From a virus: a stretch of DNA of 25,619 nucleotides. Of the stretch, positions 13,030-20,624 are shown one piece after another. The DNA lies in the IMG/VR virus record IMGVR_UViG_3300017708_001872, positions 1-25,619 of that record; one strand, 5' to 3'. The notes under the pieces are model-generated. The model searched no databases. It had not been told where the DNA came from and worked only from the letters and a program-made list of their open reading frames with translations. Every line of letters begins with the position of its first letter. The stretch's first letter is position 1. Both the position numbers and the translations under genes were made by a program.

Positions 13030-13698
13030 ATGACTGAATTTGCAATTTATGGTGATGTACCAAATGGAAATGAAGAATATTTAATTCCTATGTTCTCTAC
13101 TCCACTTCTACATCTTAAGATAGAAAATTGGGAGGAAAAGAAAAAAGAACTTCTTGAAATGTATGAGAGAAGAAAATCTGATAAATCTAAATTTAAAGTT
13201 GCCACAGGAAGTGAAACCAGTTTAGATGTAGAGACTGATTATCATTTTAATCATGACCATGGAGAGACCTATGATGAACTAATCATGGATCTTTTTAGGG
13301 ATGAGTTAGAAGCACTTGCTGATACATTTGAATGTGGTGTAGAAGTTTGTACTTCATGGTTTGAGAAAGCATCAACCACTAAGTTTCATCAAGTTCATAA
13401 CCATGGGTCTCAAGGATTCAGTGCAGTTTGTTTTGTTCAATTTGATCCAAAACATCATACACCAACTATCTTTTTGAATCCTAATCTGGCAGATGTTGAA
13501 ACCTGTAATATTATTCCACCTGGAATTAGAGAGGGATCAATGATATTTTTTCCATCATATGTTCTCCACTATACTGCACCAAATCAAAGTGATGTAGATA
13601 GAATAATTTTATCATTTAATGTTAATACGGAGTATGAAATCTTTTCATTTGAAGAAGAAAGTCAAAATTCAAGTGAATACTGCACAACCGATGTCTAA
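13030..13698 (+). CDS. 2OG-Fe(II) oxygenase-like protein, TIGR02466-type
   Basis: A 222-aa protein with the late half typical of the 2OG-FeII_Oxy_5 group. KFHQVHNHGSQGFSAVCFVQF gives the H-x-H pair at His123/His125, then FFPSYVLHYTAPN supplies the distal His180, and DRIILSFNV has Arg191, the expected 2-oxoglutarate-binding Arg. The first ~110 residues are helical and charged, and begin with a YLIPMFSTPLLH strand also seen in the gene at 14982 (RIELFTTPFFDYKL). The family uses Fe(II), O2 and 2-oxoglutarate; the substrate is unknown. It is the first of four closely packed genes of this kind, and its 3' end overlaps the next start by 8 nt. Confidence 0.75.
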   Translation: MTEFAIYGDVPNGNEEYLIPMFSTPLLHLKIENWEEKKKELLEMYERRKSDKSKFKVATGSETSLDVETDYHFNHDHGETYDELIMDLFRDELEALADTFECGVEVCTSWFEKASTTKFHQVHNHGSQGFSAVCFVQFDPKHHTPTIFLNPNLADVETCNIIPPGIREGSMIFFPSYVLHYTAPNQSDVDRIILSFNVNTEYEIFSFEEESQNSSEYCTTDV

Positions 13699-14254
13699 AT
13701 CATTTGTTCTCAGAAACTTTCTATTTCAAGATGATGTAAGAAAACTAAATCAATGGACTATTGATAACTGCTGTCAAGAGTTCTTTGAGGATGCTAACAT
13801 GGATCCTGATAATTCTGGAACAAGGTTTACAACTCGGTTTCCAAATGAATCAGTTGCTCCAAGTATAGATTATCCTGATGCCGCATACATTGCCAGACAA
13901 AGAATTATAAATTACTTTGACTTGTATGAATACAAAAGTCCTCCATCATATAGTCATGGGATTGTAAATGGTATTGGATATTCTGGTGGAAGAATAGAAG
14001 AACATATTGATCCTACATATTATCCAGATACGAAAACAGTTCATTTTAATGCCATTACACAACATGCCGATAGGGGTGGACATACTATCATTGGTGGTGT
14101 AGAATATACTGACTTAGATCCTACAGATCTTTTAATATATCAAGTATCTGAAATTCACCATGAAGTTACTGTAACCAAAGGTGATAATCCTAGAATACTA
14201 TGGGTGTTTGGTTTTTGTTTAGACGATGAAAAGATAGGAGAAATATTTTTATGA
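13691..14254 (+). CDS. 2OG-Fe(II) oxygenase-like protein
   Basis: A 187-aa protein starting MSKSFVLRNFLFQDD. The open frame extends upstream to an ATG at 13619, but that would overlap the previous gene by 80 nt with a Lys-rich N-terminus unlike the family; the ATG at 13691 overlaps by only 8 nt. GGRIEEHIDPTYYPD carries the H-x-D pair His105/Asp107, EIHHEVT has the distal His (156 or 157), and NPRILWVFGF has Arg168. Between them GGHTIIGGVEYTDLDPTDLLIY fits the jelly-roll core. An oxygenase role is likely and the substrate is unknown. The stop TGA overlaps the next ATG. Confidence 0.72.
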   Translation: MSKSFVLRNFLFQDDVRKLNQWTIDNCCQEFFEDANMDPDNSGTRFTTRFPNESVAPSIDYPDAAYIARQRIINYFDLYEYKSPPSYSHGIVNGIGYSGGRIEEHIDPTYYPDTKTVHFNAITQHADRGGHTIIGGVEYTDLDPTDLLIYQVSEIHHEVTVTKGDNPRILWVFGFCLDDEKIGEIFL

Positions 14255-14982
14255 GAGATTTGAGAAGAGATCCAACACTATTTGAGACTAATGATTTCTC
14301 AAATATGAATATTATTGAGTTTGTTGATGGTAATAGAGTATCTAATCTTTATTGGATGGATAACTTTTATAAAAGACCTGATGATGTTTATAGTTACTTA
14401 CTTTCGATTGAACCACCACTATGGAAAGTTGGACCAGAATGGGATTTAGGTAGAGGAACTCTTAATACCAAATACTTTGAAGATCGCAGACATATGATGA
14501 AACATCCTGGTATCTGTTCATTATATAATAAACTTAGCAATATTTGTAATCAACAACCTCTAGATGATGAGATTGTAACTAATTTCACAAGATTCTCGAA
14601 AGTTAAAGAAAACCCACATGACACTCATTTTTGGTGGCCACATCACGATGGAGGATATAATGGTATCTGCTATCTTTCAAAGAAAGAAGAGATTGGAACA
14701 AATTTATATAAACCAACTGTTACTGACAATCCAAAAATTTTACCCTTAGATGAGAATGGTGGTGTGAGAGATGAACATGCTATTCCATGGACACCTAAAG
14801 ATTTGTGGGAAATTGTAGTTAGATTTCGATCAAAGTTCAATCGATTTGTTATGTTTGAGGGATCTTACTATTATCACAGTATGGATCTTACGGGTAAAAA
14901 TTACTTTGCGGATCACTATAGTGATGCTGAGTTTAGAATTAATCAAGTATTTTTCTTCAGGAATCCTAGGGCAAGAGAATAA
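14251..14982 (+). CDS. DUF6445-like / 2OG-oxygenase-fold protein
   Basis: A 243-aa protein. FWWPHHDGGYNGICYLS gives an H-x-D pair (His131, Asp133) followed by the strand that normally follows it. FVMFEGSYYYHSMDL supplies a distal His209, and AEFRINQVFFFRNP has Arg229. The order and spacing fit the double-stranded beta-helix oxygenases, and the pattern resembles the DUF6445 group, whose function is not established as far as I know. It is coupled to both neighbours (ATGA overlap upstream, TAATG downstream). An unusually long segment (residues ~145-190) lies between the proximal and distal ligands. Confidence 0.65.
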   Translation: MRDLRRDPTLFETNDFSNMNIIEFVDGNRVSNLYWMDNFYKRPDDVYSYLLSIEPPLWKVGPEWDLGRGTLNTKYFEDRRHMMKHPGICSLYNKLSNICNQQPLDDEIVTNFTRFSKVKENPHDTHFWWPHHDGGYNGICYLSKKEEIGTNLYKPTVTDNPKILPLDENGGVRDEHAIPWTPKDLWEIVVRFRSKFNRFVMFEGSYYYHSMDLTGKNYFADHYSDAEFRINQVFFFRNPRARE

Positions 14983-15644
14983 TGACAGAGCATAGATTTA
15001 GACCAGAAGTAAAACCAAATGATGATAATTTTGTTCCTATAGAAGTAGAAACTAGGGATAGAATTGAATTGTTCACCACACCATTTTTTGATTATAAATT
15101 AGATTTTGATAATCAAGAAATTGTTGATGAGTGTTTTGAACTAAAAGATAAGTATCCGAATGGAGTTAGGAAATCTAACTTTGCAGATGGGTGGCAAAGT
15201 CAAGTTTTTGAATTATGTGAAATACGGAGAGGAGTTACACCTGCAATCCAAAATCTTGCTAGAAATGTTATTGACCTGACAAATGATATGTTAGAAGATT
15301 GTGGTTCTGGGTCAAGAGTTAGTGATGAGCAAATTGGTTGGTGGATTAACATCAACAAAGGAATGGGTTACAACGTCTTTCATACACATCCTGGTTGCTC
15401 AGTTATTGGAATCTATTATCCAATGATTCCTGATAATCTTGAAGAAAACGAGGGAAACTTAACTATTCTCAGAACTGATCCATCAAATCATAATGCTGCA
15501 TTTGCCGATGTCCCCAATCATTGTGAATGGGTAATTAAACCTGAGGTAAATAGGTTGTATTTAATGCCTTCTACAGTTGGGCATTATGTTACACCACATT
15601 TTAGTGACAATGAGAGAATATCTATCGCATTTAATATTGGATAA
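14982..15644 (+). CDS. 2OG-Fe(II) oxygenase, TIGR02466-type
   Basis: A 220-aa protein and the clearest member of the 2OG-FeII_Oxy_5 type here. WWININKGMGYNVFHTHPG contains His134/His136, VIGIYYP is the next strand, YLMPSTVGHYVTPH gives distal His201, and NERISIAFNIG gives Arg212 and the typical C-terminal end. Length and layout match the gene at 13030, so the two probably share ancestry. The substrate is unknown. It starts on TAATG of the preceding gene and its stop codon lies inside a late-promoter-like GATAAATAATAC. Confidence 0.8.
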   Translation: MTEHRFRPEVKPNDDNFVPIEVETRDRIELFTTPFFDYKLDFDNQEIVDECFELKDKYPNGVRKSNFADGWQSQVFELCEIRRGVTPAIQNLARNVIDLTNDMLEDCGSGSRVSDEQIGWWININKGMGYNVFHTHPGCSVIGIYYPMIPDNLEENEGNLTILRTDPSNHNAAFADVPNHCEWVIKPEVNRLYLMPSTVGHYVTPHFSDNERISIAFNIG

Positions 15645-15680: not shown

Positions 15681-16217
15681 ATGTCTATTCTGCAAACGAG
15701 TGGTATACAATTTGGACTTGATAATACTGTTTTAAACTCTAAGTATGGCATTATTCCTCAGAATAGTGTAGCAGTGTTTTATCAACCATCAGCACCCAGT
15801 GGATGGGCACAAGTAACCACTCATAATAATAAAGCACTTAGAGTTGTATCTGGTTCTGGTGGAGGATTTGGTTCTGGTGGAACTGCTGGTCCTGGTGGAC
15901 AACCATTCTCTACCATATTTCCCACATCAACTCGTCCAATTAGTGGAACTGTAACTGCTGTTGGTACTGTTGGAGGAACAACATTGACCACTCAGCAAAT
16001 TCCTGGACATACACACAATGCGGGTTCTCAAGTTAACGTAAGTCCTGGATCTCCTGGTATTGGTGGACGTGCTGTAAATTCTGATGCACCTGCAACATCA
16101 CCAACTGGTGGTGGAACATCACATACTCACCCATTTTCTGGTGGAGCATCACCATATTCTGGAAGTATTGATCTGAGAGTTCAATATATTGATGTCATTC
16201 TCTGTCGTTTTAGTTGA
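15681..16217 (+). CDS. Short tail fibre protein with paired H-x-H motifs
   Basis: A 178-aa protein starting MSILQTSGIQFG. Residues ~25-60 (GIIPQNSVAVFYQPSAPSGW) match the tail-collar/short-fibre module found in many phages. LTTQQIPGHTHN carries a G-x-H-x-H motif at His110/His112, and a second pair is at His148/His150. In T4 long and short fibres such H-x-H motifs bind iron or zinc along the trimer axis, so a metal-stabilised trimeric tip is likely. The Gly/Ser/Pro-rich stretch between the pairs would be the exposed, variable part. The C-terminus (LRVQYIDVILC) is almost identical to that of the next gene. A late-type promoter lies upstream. Confidence 0.78.
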   Translation: MSILQTSGIQFGLDNTVLNSKYGIIPQNSVAVFYQPSAPSGWAQVTTHNNKALRVVSGSGGGFGSGGTAGPGGQPFSTIFPTSTRPISGTVTAVGTVGGTTLTTQQIPGHTHNAGSQVNVSPGSPGIGGRAVNSDAPATSPTGGGTSHTHPFSGGASPYSGSIDLRVQYIDVILCRFS

Positions 16218-16227
16218 GGTATAAGAT

Positions 16228-17490
16228 ATGTCAATTTTAAAGGCAGACGGAATTCAGTTTGGTGGTGGCAGTCAGTTAAATAGTTTTTACGGGATTATTC
16301 CTCAATCCTCTACGATGGTATTTTACCAGGCGGCAGCACCAACTGGTTGGACTAAAGATATATCAGAAAACGATAAATCACTTAGAGTTGTTGATGGTAC
16401 TGGTGGATCATCTGCTGGATCTGTAAGTTTCACTACATTATTTAATGATTCTGGTGCAGACAGCACTGTTTCTTCAACTCTTTCAGGAAGCACTGGACCA
16501 ACAACATTAACAACAGATCAACTTCCTGCACATACACATAACACTGGAAGTAATCCTAATTCATATAGATCTTCCGAAGGTTCTTCACCATTTAGACAAA
16601 ATAATAGACAACCACGTGGATATAATATTAGAGCATCAACTAGAATTGTTCTAGACACTAGAGTTAGTGTCGATTTTAGACAACCAACAAATGTAAGACA
16701 ACCTCTTAACTATAGACAACCACAAAGGCAGAGAGTTCCACTTAGACAGAGACAACCAAGAAACTTTAGAGTTAGATATCAAACACGTTCTAGAAATCCA
16801 TTTACTTTCAGAGTTCCTGTTCCTTTCCGTGTTCCATTAAGATCTAGAGCACCATTTAGTTTCCGTCAGGGTGGTGGAAGAAGTAGAAGACCAATTCCAA
16901 ACTCTTTCCGTGTTGGTGTAAGAAGGAATGATAGAGAACCAAGAAGAAGAGGAGGGAGACGTAGAAGAAACGATAGATTCCCAAGAAGAGCAGTAAGAAG
17001 ACAACCTAGAAATACAAGTTATAGGCAAAGAAGGCAAACTCGAAGACCTGTATCTGGAAGACAGAGAAGATCTTTCCGTCAACCTCGTAACTTTAGACAA
17101 CCCAGAAATGGTAGGCAGAGAAGAGATTTTAGACAGAGGCAACCGAGAACATTTAGAGTGAGATATTCATTCAGGCAGAGAAATGGTTTCCGAGTGGATA
17201 TTCCGTTTAGAATAACAGTTCCTCAAAGAAATCCTGCATCCTATAGACAACCAAGAGCATATCGTACACCTCAAAGATATCCTCAAGTTACGAGTATAAG
17301 ATTCCCATTGAGAACTTTGAGTCCTGGTGGTACTATCAGGGCAAATAATACTCAAGCACCTGCAACATCATCAACTGGTGGTGGTCAAGCACACGTTCAT
17401 CCATTTACTGGATCTCCAATATCATTTACAGCAGGATTATCACCATTGAGAGTTCAATATATTGATGTGATTCTTTGCAGTTTGGATTGA
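16228..17490 (+). CDS. Short tail fibre paralogue with Arg-rich hexapeptide insertion
   Basis: A 420-aa paralogue of the 178-aa protein just upstream: MSILKADGIQFGG, YGIIPQSSTMVFYQAAAPTGW, LTTDQLPAHTHN at the start and LRVQYIDVILC at the end. H-x-H pairs are at His102/His104 and His389/His391. Between them, residues ~123-361 form an insertion rich in Arg, Gln, Pro and Phe/Tyr with a six-residue period, R-[QV]-[PR]-x-x-[FY]. I count about 74 Arg in about 240 residues and no Lys. The insertion would form an extended, very basic tip or shaft. The frame is intact and rejoins the conserved C-terminus, so this is not a frameshift product. GAGG overlapping the previous stop serves as ribosome site. 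Receptor or surface-polysaccharide binding is inferred. Confidence 0.8.
   Translation: MSILKADGIQFGGGSQLNSFYGIIPQSSTMVFYQAAAPTGWTKDISENDKSLRVVDGTGGSSAGSVSFTTLFNDSGADSTVSSTLSGSTGPTTLTTDQLPAHTHNTGSNPNSYRSSEGSSPFRQNNRQPRGYNIRASTRIVLDTRVSVDFRQPTNVRQPLNYRQPQRQRVPLRQRQPRNFRVRYQTRSRNPFTFRVPVPFRVPLRSRAPFSFRQGGGRSRRPIPNSFRVGVRRNDREPRRRGGRRRRNDRFPRRAVRRQPRNTSYRQRRQTRRPVSGRQRRSFRQPRNFRQPRNGRQRRDFRQRQPRTFRVRYSFRQRNGFRVDIPFRITVPQRNPASYRQPRAYRTPQRYPQVTSIRFPLRTLSPGGTIRANNTQAPATSSTGGGQAHVHPFTGSPISFTAGLSPLRVQYIDVILCSLD
16594..17310 (+). repeat. Degenerate 18-nt (hexapeptide) tandem repeat
   Basis: Protein pattern R-[QVAS]-[PR]-x-x-[FYV], with runs such as FRQPTNVRQPLNYRQP and FRQPRNFRQPRNGRQ. Most Arg codons are AGA, with some CGT. 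The period slips near the Arg-dense centre (residues ~231-262). Flanking DNA is shared with the 178-aa paralogue (CCTGCAACATCA, then CAACTGGTGGTGG on the right side), which marks the repeat as a module inserted into a common scaffold. Confidence 0.7.
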
Positions 17491-17526: not shown

Positions 17527-17913
17527 ATGACTAAATCAACTGGCAAGTGGTGTCCGCTTATTAAAAAAGATTGTGTCGAACATAAGTGTGCATGGTATAC
17601 ACATATCACTGGGCAAGATCCTAACACTGGAAATCCAGTAGATCATTGGTCTTGTGCAGTTCAATGGATGCCAATGTTGATGATTGAAAATAGTCAACAA
17701 CAAAGATCTACAAGTTCTGCTGTTGAATCATTCCGTAATGAAATGACAAAGGCACATGAAACTAATCAGAACATGTTAGATGCCGTTGGCAATATGTATC
17801 TTGATATGTGTGAAGCACAGGGTGTCAATGTTTCTGAATACATTGAACAAATCGAAGGTATAGATAATGAAGAAGAAAATTTACTACCCGAATCTGACGA
17901 GGAACAACAATGA
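17527..17913 (+). CDS. Cys-containing small protein, unknown function
   Basis: A 128-aa protein. The N-terminal ~45 residues carry Cys9, Cys16, Cys21 and Cys43, with His19 and His26 nearby (KWCPLIKKDCVEHKCAWYTH), the kind of arrangement that binds zinc or an iron-sulfur cluster. The remainder is predicted helical (ESFRNEMTKAHETNQNMLDA) with a very acidic C-terminus. A late-type promoter lies just upstream and the stop overlaps the next gene by 4 nt, so it should be co-expressed with the coiled-coil protein among virion genes. The function is not known to me. Confidence 0.68.
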   Translation: MTKSTGKWCPLIKKDCVEHKCAWYTHITGQDPNTGNPVDHWSCAVQWMPMLMIENSQQQRSTSSAVESFRNEMTKAHETNQNMLDAVGNMYLDMCEAQGVNVSEYIEQIEGIDNEEENLLPESDEEQQ

Positions 17914-19256
17914 AAATTTCCATCATCCCAGAAGATAAAAAAATTATTGTAGATGGTAAGACTGTTGATCTTGAGGATAATGCACCTTGGGACTTTGATG
18001 ATGAAACTGTCCATGCAATTCAGTGGAGAGATGGCAGAGGTGAATTAGAATATGAAGATGTCATTGGTGAAGATCCTGTACCAAATAAAATTTTTAGTGA
18101 AGATGAATTTGATACTATTGTTCAACCATATCTAGACTATTTTAATACATTCTTGTCAATCTATGAGCAGAGAGAACTTGCTGCGGCATTAGAAGAAGAG
18201 GAAAATCTTTCTAAGCAGATTGAAGAATTGAACATTGATAAACTTGAGAAAGAAGCACAACTTGTCATCATTAATGATCTTCAAAAGCAAAATGAAGAAC
18301 TTCGTAGTGAGAAAGAAAAACTTTACGATCTAAAATCTAAAGAAGAACAGAAAAGTGTCTATGATAGGCAAACCACTCTGATGGAACTTGAGAGAGAAAA
18401 AGCAGCAAGAGAAAGAGAAGTTGCAGCACTTGAACAACAAAAAGCAGATGAATTCTTTCAGAAAAAGTCTTTAGAACTTTCTAAAAAGTATGATGAACTT
18501 TATCATAGTTTTGAAAAAGAAAAGGAAGAATTTATTGAGGAAAGAAAGCAGTATCAAGAACTGCTTCAGATGGAACGTGATAAGATGGAAAGAGAAACAG
18601 AACTTCTCGAAAAGAACATTCTTGAAGATGAGCAAGAAAAAGAACTTAAGAGAGCAAATGATGATAAAGTTCGTGAACTTGAACTAGAACAAATTGAAAT
18701 TTCTAGAATGGAACTTGAACTTCAAAAGCAAGGACTTGAAACTGCATGGGGTGATGCACAATTTACAATGGAAGAAGTTGTGCGTGAGAGAGAAAAAATG
18801 AAACTTGATCATGAGTTGGAACAGAAAAAATTCCAACAGGAAGTTGATCATGAGATGGATATTATCATGAGATCTCATGAAGAAGTTCTTAAGAAAATGG
18901 ATATTGAACAGACATATGATGAACTTGATGATGCATTAGAGAGAGAATTTGATAGGGCAGAGAAAGAGTATAGAGAAGTGCAAAGAGCAAAACTTCTTGA
19001 ATCACATAAGGCAGAAAACACTGATCCAAGTCAACTATCTAAACTTGCTAAAGAAAGTATAGAGAGACAAGAAATTGAGAGTGGTCAAGAATATAGTGTT
19101 GATGACATTTTGTCACTCATGGATGAAATTGATCCAGAAAAACTATACACTACTCTTACAGATGATGAGAGAGACGATGGTAATGGAATGCCTCTAGATA
19201 AGGCAGTTAAATGGTTTGCTGCATTAAAAGAAGTTCTAGATAAAAACGATAAGTAA
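17910..19256 (+). CDS. Long coiled-coil protein with phage-type N-terminal domain
   Basis: A 448-aa protein. Residues 1-~80 (MKISIIPEDKKIIVDGK, HAIQWRDGRGELEYED) resemble a small domain often found in phage proteins encoded near tail fibres. From about residue 87 to 400 the sequence is an almost unbroken Glu/Lys/Leu/Gln coiled coil with very few Gly or Pro; the C-terminal ~60 residues (VDDILSLMDEIDPEKL) are shorter helices. By itself the coiled coil could span about 40 nm or fold back on itself. Context in a late block next to fibre genes suggests a fibre, whisker or assembly-scaffold part, but a non-virion role is possible. It starts at ATGA overlapping the previous stop. Confidence 0.7.
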   Translation: MKISIIPEDKKIIVDGKTVDLEDNAPWDFDDETVHAIQWRDGRGELEYEDVIGEDPVPNKIFSEDEFDTIVQPYLDYFNTFLSIYEQRELAAALEEEENLSKQIEELNIDKLEKEAQLVIINDLQKQNEELRSEKEKLYDLKSKEEQKSVYDRQTTLMELEREKAAREREVAALEQQKADEFFQKKSLELSKKYDELYHSFEKEKEEFIEERKQYQELLQMERDKMERETELLEKNILEDEQEKELKRANDDKVRELELEQIEISRMELELQKQGLETAWGDAQFTMEEVVREREKMKLDHELEQKKFQQEVDHEMDIIMRSHEEVLKKMDIEQTYDELDDALEREFDRAEKEYREVQRAKLLESHKAENTDPSQLSKLAKESIERQEIESGQEYSVDDILSLMDEIDPEKLYTTLTDDERDDGNGMPLDKAVKWFAALKEVLDKNDK

Positions 19257-19262
19257 TGACAT

Positions 19263-20624
19263 ATGAAACTTGAATTATTGAAAAACAACTACATTGTTGT
19301 TCCTGGTTTTATTGATTTAGATTATGCTAAAAGATTAGAAACAGAGTTTATCGTAACAGACGCACAATTTAAGTTTGAAGGTGATGAACAGGCACCAAAC
19401 TCTTCATCATGCTTTAACTTTCATCCTGCTATAGAATTACTCACCAATAAAACTAGCACAGTTAGTGAACTTATCGGTGAAACTGTTCTACCAACATATA
19501 CTTACTCCAGAATATATCGCAACGACAGTGTTCTTAAGAGGCACACAGATCGTCCTGCTTGTGAAATATCAATGACAGTACATCTTGGTGGTGATAAACC
19601 TTGGGCAATCTGGATTGAGACACCAGAAAGTGTAAAAAAATGCATCACTTTGAATCCTGGTGATGCTGTGTTATACTTAGGTTGTGTTTCTCCACACTGG
19701 AGAGGTAGATTTGAAGGTGACTATTATGCACAAATCTTCTTACACTATGTGAGAAGTAGAGGAATGTATGGTTGCACATATTTTGATAGACTAATCACAG
19801 AAGACATTGAAGATCATGAAGCACTACAAAAGGAGTATGATGAAATGAAAAACAAATTTGACCATGTATCCACAAAAACAATTCTCCCTAAAAAATATAG
19901 AGATCAACAGTCATCCTCATTAGATATTATTGAACAGGATGATGAAACAGAACAATATATCAATTTTGATGACGTTGTTATAGCAAATAGTAAATATGAA
20001 AAGTTCCTTAAACCTAAGAATACACCAGAAATACAAACTAAAACAAAGGAATTAAGTCGTTTTAGTTTGGAGCATTTTGTCTGGCACAAAGAAGAGTTTA
20101 TTGATCCAGATTTTTGCGATAAACTTTTGGAAGAATATGCTCCAACTAACTATTGGGAGAGTACATTAACTGGTGCTGGGCATGATCCAGATGCAAGAAG
20201 ATGTGAGTTTATTCCAATTTCAGATCAAGCAGTTATTGAGGAAAATAATCAAGAGGGTAGGAGAGAAATTGATAATTATCTCTTTAATGTTGTAAAAGGT
20301 ATCATTGAAGAATATCAGGAAAGTTATCCTGAATTTGAATTGGAGATTCAAGAAGATAGTGGATATGAACTACTAAAGTATGAAGAAGGTGACTTTTATA
20401 TTCAGCATACTGATTCATTTAAAGACCAACCTAGAGCATTGACTGTCATTATGTCAATGAATGATGGTTATGAAGGTGGTGAAGTTGCACTATTCAACCG
20501 TGAATTAGTGTATAAACTCAATGCTGGTGATGTATTAGTTTTCCCATCTAATTTTATGTACCCACATGAGATTTTACCTGTAACTGAAGGAACTAGATAT
20601 TCTATCATAACCTGGATTGTATGA
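19263..20624 (+). CDS. Two-domain 2OG-Fe(II) oxygenase
   Basis: A 453-aa fusion of two oxygenase domains. Domain 1 (~1-175): YSRIYRNDSVLKRHTDRPA has His94/Asp96, LNPGDAVLYLG precedes distal His145 (SPHWRGRF), and the strand YYAQIFLHYV follows; no Arg or Lys sits at the usual 2OG-binding place after the distal His, where Gln157 falls. A charged linker (~180-265) follows. Domain 2 (~270-453) is prolyl-4-hydroxylase-like: LLKYEEGDFYIQHTDSF has His382/Asp384, EGGEVALF is the typical strand, and NFMYPHEILPVTEGTRYSII gives His435 and Arg445. Domain 2 should be active; domain 1 may differ in co-substrate or be structural. Substrates are unknown. The stop overlaps the next ATG. Confidence 0.82.
   Translation: MKLELLKNNYIVVPGFIDLDYAKRLETEFIVTDAQFKFEGDEQAPNSSSCFNFHPAIELLTNKTSTVSELIGETVLPTYTYSRIYRNDSVLKRHTDRPACEISMTVHLGGDKPWAIWIETPESVKKCITLNPGDAVLYLGCVSPHWRGRFEGDYYAQIFLHYVRSRGMYGCTYFDRLITEDIEDHEALQKEYDEMKNKFDHVSTKTILPKKYRDQQSSSLDIIEQDDETEQYINFDDVVIANSKYEKFLKPKNTPEIQTKTKELSRFSLEHFVWHKEEFIDPDFCDKLLEEYAPTNYWESTLTGAGHDPDARRCEFIPISDQAVIEENNQEGRREIDNYLFNVVKGIIEEYQESYPEFELEIQEDSGYELLKYEEGDFYIQHTDSFKDQPRALTVIMSMNDGYEGGEVALFNRELVYKLNAGDVLVFPSNFMYPHEILPVTEGTRYSIITWIV

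Follow-up and report, generated by a model that had tools for sequence, protein, structure and literature searches.

In the window, the whole stretch of 25,619 nucleotides that was analysed, we identified a gene for a 420-residue fibre protein (16228..17490, plus strand) whose small scaffold is interrupted by a long insert rich in arginine and devoid of lysine. The DNA is that of a cyanophage and is colinear with Synechococcus phage S-SCSM1 (Kyanoviridae). With moderate confidence, we propose that this insert folds into a beta needle that runs out and back, carries a basic apex and serves as the adhesin tip of the phage tail-fibre head. Such a fibre tip, apparently of a kind not described before, would probably make contact with the surface of the host cell.

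The needle fibre gene and its homologues

The N-terminal scaffold of the protein (residues 1-104; 16228..16539, plus strand), delimited by alignment and by its match to PDB entry 9qgo, ends with the motif HTH (residues 102-104; 16531-16539). The C-terminal scaffold (residues 389-420; 17392..17490, plus strand), delimited by the scaffold alignment, starts with HVH (residues 389-391; 17392-17400) and has a QYIDVILC motif at its end. Between them lies the 284-residue insert (residues 105-388; 16540..17391, plus strand), for which a needle is proposed on the grounds of residue parity, symmetry and composition. The chain contains these two H-x-H motifs only, none of them within the insert, and their four histidines did not vary among the 23 scaffolds sampled. 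A preliminary description had correctly located the repeat between these histidine pairs; the flanking motifs are P-A-H-T-H and Q-A-H-V-H and do not have the G-x-H-x-H form that it mentioned for T4 gp37. It had also recognized the same scaffold with a short insert in the neighbouring gene (15681..16217, plus strand), and our scaffold alignment agrees: this gene encodes a short paralogue of 178 residues that lacks the needle. Wherever a needle locus extends far enough, this short paralogue immediately precedes the needle gene.

A chance or frameshift origin of the open reading frame was rejected, since the frame is intact, the protein is conserved in more than 20 contigs as well as in an isolate, and dN/dS is below 0.5. 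The protein is 100% identical to that of contig IMGVR_UViG_3300017721_001026. Its direct orthologue in S-SCSM1, the only isolate with a needle in the phage collection, is SSCSM1_245, a "short tail fiber protein" of 421 residues that is 77% identical and lies in the same gene order. The GenBank record of S-SCSM1 marks the short partner as a virion protein and leaves the needle protein unmarked. Mass spectrometry of the S-SCSM1 virion detected 45 proteins, the needle protein not being named in the text, and neither the repeat nor the tail fibres are discussed in that paper (PMC9602691). An insert so rich in arginine would be nearly invisible to tryptic mass spectrometry.

Searches of IMG/VR by tblastn yielded about 30 needle proteins (411-528 residues, 31-100% identical), as well as about 100 different short proteins with the scaffold. 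The preliminary description had asked whether such repeats always sit between H-x-H pairs; in every full-length needle homologue found, the insert was situated between the two H-x-H motifs, and the searches gave no homologue with Arg-rich hexads that lacked the H-x-H scaffold. Comparison of insert lengths, which it had also suggested, gave 275-381 residues in needle proteins and a loop of 35-59 residues at the same site in the short relatives. Because the insert is always between the H-x-H motifs and a short loop occupies the same place in the relatives, it can be regarded as an expanded apical loop of the fibre scaffold. The short fibre proteins with two H-x-H motifs in other cyanophage contigs share this scaffold and often form a tandem pair, but differ from the needle proteins in the length of the loop and in having no oxygenase pair upstream. 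In a tree of the scaffold part, needle genes and their short partners fell into one group (support 92/69), and the needle label needed two changes. Judged from these sequences, the needle genes fit one cyanophage lineage and may have a single origin.

We also searched for (F/Y)-x-Q-P hexads. Every Arg-rich multi-hexad viral match with an intact fibre gene proved to be a scaffold needle, the remaining viral matches being either Q/P-rich low-complexity sequences or a different protein, and the bacterial matches that were examined were unrelated. This different viral protein (L170:7948-9324, with counterparts in L177 and L175) carries F-Q-Q-P-Y-x hexads in N- and C-terminal arms around a central non-repetitive domain, contains no H-x-H motif and has Pro spacings dominated by 4 and 6. 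No relatives of it were found among phage records. It may be another out-and-back shaft.

Composition and period of two

Residues 123-361 (16594-17310), for which about 74 Arg and no Lys had been reported, contain 73 Arg, 0 Lys, 27 Pro and 7 Asp/Glu among 239 residues, so that the earlier count was essentially accurate. The whole insert contains 76 Arg (27%), 0 Lys, 8 Asp/Glu and 31 Pro (11%). Base or codon composition was rejected as the source of the arginine, as the neighbouring proteins contain 2-5% Arg and 2-10% Lys.

The hexad R-[QV]-[PR]-x-x-[FY], described earlier as a period of six, occurs in 11 exact matches, whereas shuffled sequences (n=2000) gave 0.42 on average and never more than 4. 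It is thus far above chance and yet loose, with no unbroken array; the regularity that holds more generally is a strict period of two. Spectra revealed this period in several homologues. The separation between prolines is even in 0.83-1.00 of cases and that between proline and hydrophobic residues is odd in 0.70-0.90, and each of these fractions exceeded all 300 shuffles in each of the 28 inserts. Among nearest Pro-Pro distances, more than 90% are even; 2, 4, 8 and 14 are common, and 3 and 9 are rare. Such parity is what would be expected of an extended strand with two unlike faces. In all 28 homologues, one face holds the prolines and most of the arginines, and the other holds aromatic and aliphatic residues. 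In close orthologues, the proline face is about 42% Arg and 20% Pro, with the remainder mostly Asn, Ser and Thr; it is the more conserved of the two, the opposite face consisting of Val, Gln, Phe, Arg and Tyr. Tandem hexads alone would also yield parity. Therefore, the register shifts of 2, 4, 8 and 14 are more telling, since they reveal that parity survives where the hexad frame fails.

The same shifts bear on the possibility that the insert is a left-handed beta-helix of hexapeptide coils, or a polyproline or collagen-like helix, which we consider very unlikely. The hexad repeat itself and an Arg period near 3.1 in the orthologues closest to this protein would fit such a helix, but the shifts keep parity while breaking both six- and three-residue frames, the sequence has neither a Gly-x-y repeat nor an [LIV]-G hexapeptide, and most positions hold large Arg, Gln or aromatic residues. 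When the two forms were considered separately, the left-handed beta-helix was rejected because [LIV]-G-x4 hexads in 18-residue coils are absent and register shifts are common, and the collagen-like fibre because there are no Gly-x-y triplets and the Pro spacing is even rather than in multiples of 3.

Mirror symmetry, structure prediction and selection

In 24 of 28 homologues, over insert lengths of 275-366 residues, the densest Arg window is centred at 0.45-0.52 of the insert; in the other four (L015, L095, L096 and L121), it is off-centre. In the present protein, it forms the proposed apex NDREPRRRGGRRRRNDRFPRR in the middle of the insert (residues 234-254; 16927..16989, plus strand). The best internal direct repeats join positions whose sum is approximately the insert length. 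Here, the internal repeat search paired LRQRQPRNFRVRYQTRSRNPF on the out arm (residues 172-192; 16741..16803, plus strand) with FRQRQPRTFRVRYSFRQRNGF on the back arm (residues 301-321; 17128..17190, plus strand), at a ratio of sum to length of 1.00. Mirror-placed pairs were also present in L020, L094-L096 and L113, and these are unrelated in sequence to the pair found here. Among the top three internal repeats of 15 distinct inserts, 23 of 45 were mirror-placed, i.e. had a position sum within 0.98 +/- 0.06 of the insert length. The control test, run after the centre of 0.98 had been picked from the data, gave 7.3 +/- 2.2 such pairs when six-residue units were shuffled and 6.9 +/- 2.5 on rotation (maximum 14, n=120). 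An antiparallel hairpin, in which residues at equal heights have equal neighbours and the loop lies in mid-insert, would explain both the mirror-placed repeats and the central Arg peak. A one-way solenoid, as the helical alternative would have it, is unlike a chain whose ends meet at the scaffold base and whose arms are mirror-related.

AlphaFold2 monomer models had mean pLDDT values of 40 for the needle protein and 44.5 for the scaffold, too low for use, so that no structure supports the needle fold. The needle model, to which we gave no weight, has its only long strands at residues 137-157 and 328-348, which are mirror-placed.

In ten orthologues, dN/dS of the insert was 0.24-0.48, similar to that of the scaffold. 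Arg was present in all ten sequences at 69 insert columns, and at 17 of these the AGR and CGN codon families both occur. Arg and Lys were never seen to replace each other in the insert of these orthologues, although AGA to AAA is a single step. Conserved Arg without exchange for Lys suggests that the guanidinium group itself, and not charge alone, seems to be needed, perhaps for stacking or bidentate bonds.

These observations also bear on the idea that the insert is a disordered tether of low complexity, which would adhere to polyanions much as a polybasic tail does. Its high content of Arg and Pro and the low pLDDT are what such a tether would display. However, a tether would hardly account for the strict Pro/hydrophobic parity and the mirror symmetry in all families, for dN/dS and Arg conservation equal to those of the folded scaffold, or for the lack of Arg/Lys exchange, which simple charge would permit; we regard this explanation as unlikely.

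Comparison with known fibre heads

The scaffold profile matched PDB entries 9qgo ("Tail fiber protein"; E 7.2e-11, positions 8-164 of 180) and 9nxk ("Tail fibers protein"; E 4e-5). The alignment with 9qgo covers 157 of the 180 scaffold positions and includes both histidine motifs (YHYH and GHNH in 9qgo), but in 9qgo the two motifs are separated by roughly 40-60 residues and Arg hexads are absent, and the needle profile aligns with this entry over the scaffold parts only. No Pfam match was found for the scaffold, the phage tail collar domain included, and among PHROG families there were only weak "tail protein" matches for 3 of 23 scaffolds.

The closest analogue in overall plan appears to be T4 gp37, whose needle D11 lies inside D10 (residues 811-881 and 1010-1026), holds seven iron sites with iron-binding histidines along its length, and whose tip binds LPS and OmpC (PMC6957217). 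In both proteins, a small fibre head is interrupted by a long insert that is flanked on either side by H-x-H. On the other hand, the insert of T4 comprises 128 residues, contains seven H-x-H motifs, 1 Arg and 3 Lys, and lacks both Pro and a period-two signal, whereas the cyanophage insert has histidines at its base only. In view of these seven H-x-H motifs and the lack of proline and parity in the T4 needle, the cyanophage insert does not match the gp37 type of needle in detail. Comparison by hhalign with T4 gp37 and gp12 gave probabilities of 0.3 and 0.7% (E 0.18 and 0.08), single T4 sequences being a weak test. The gp37-like placement suggested previously is thus borne out by the position between H-x-H motifs and by the out-and-back symmetry, but not by any significant gp37 or gp12 profile match. 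By analogy, the insert resembles the gp37 needle in plan and in its placement in the tail-fibre head, while its sequence is unlike.

Proposed needle and its downstream neighbours

In the proposed needle, the apical loop of the fibre head would run out for about 130 residues as a beta strand, turn at an apex carrying RRRGGRRRR and return to the scaffold. If the protein is a trimer like its fibre relatives, three hairpins would form a six-stranded needle, with a length of at most about 40 nm when fully extended at 3.3 A per residue. Arg, Pro, Asn and Ser would line one side of each strand, and aromatic residues, Val and Gln the other. Which face is outside we infer, and the greater conservation of the Arg/Pro face could also mean that it is buried. 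A metal is probably coordinated at the base by the scaffold's four histidines, as in the H-x-H motifs of T4 gp37. The basic needle and its apex may attach to an anionic polymer on the surface of the picocyanobacterial host, with LPS, polysaccharide or an envelope glycoprotein as candidates.

Just downstream of the needle gene, 17527-17913 and 17910-19256 encode Glu-rich proteins; the product of the latter has 448 residues, is Glu/Lys-rich and is probably a coiled coil. It is possible that they are assembly partners of the basic needle. Their potential to neutralise the insert, together with its very high Arg content, would also suit a chaperone-like or assembly segment, or a module that binds nucleic acid or polyphosphate inside the infected cell, instead of an adhesin. 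We find such a role improbable, considering that the insert is fixed at the apex of a fibre scaffold and that the S-SCSM1 annotation lists the tandem paralogue as a virion tail fibre protein.

2OG-Fe(II) oxygenase genes upstream of the fibre pair

Four genes on the plus strand precede the fibre pair. Two encode 2OG-Fe(II) oxygenases that match PF13759 and phrog_81 (13030..13698 and 14982..15644, the second ending just upstream of the pair). Between them are an ORF without Pfam or PHROG matches of its own whose S-SCSM1 counterpart is annotated as a 2OG-Fe(II) oxygenase (13619..14254), and another with this annotation in S-SCSM1 and matches to DUF6445 (weak) and phrog_1644 (14251..14982). The PHROG family of the latter is named "minor coat protein", and one of its two names is probably wrong. 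A further ORF, 19263-20624, matches PHROG "ferrochelatase" families in its N-terminal part and a 2OG-Fe(II) oxygenase in its C-terminal part; either two genes have fused or the family has been misnamed.

Upstream DNA was available for 23 needle loci, L019 and L034 included, and each of them had 2-4 genes matching S-SCSM1 2OG-Fe(II) oxygenases within 3 kb upstream, and two upstream oxygenase genes were found at none of 26 short-fibre loci. PF13759 was detected in 22 of 53 upstream ORFs at needle loci versus 0 of 59 at short-fibre loci. Counts over whole contigs revealed PF13759 in needle and non-needle phages alike; the association is therefore one of position and not of presence. Moreover, as the tree is compatible with one needle origin, it may rest on a single event. 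Upstream of short-fibre loci (L026, L050, L052, L114 and others), the oxygenase position of needle loci is repeatedly taken by radical SAM/SPASM and carbamoyltransferase genes, as though every type of fibre came with modifying enzymes of its own.

It is conceivable, although doubtful, that the upstream oxygenases hydroxylate the regularly spaced Pro or Arg residues of the needle and that the basic needle, once modified, adheres to a broad range of polyanions on marine picocyanobacteria. Giant viruses provide a precedent with their collagen-modifying enzymes (PMC9546862), of which the oxygenases would then be the phage counterpart. According to the S-SCSM1 paper, the role of 2OG-Fe(II) oxygenases has not been specifically investigated in viruses (PMC9602691). 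The gene order described here suggests a testable substrate for the many phage enzymes of this kind.

The needle offers a defined candidate tip for the recognition of marine Synechococcus and Prochlorococcus by T4-like cyanophages, and S-SCSM1 carries this candidate tip in culture (on WH7803). In addition, parity combined with mirror symmetry provides a sequence rule by which other needle tips may be spotted without structure prediction.
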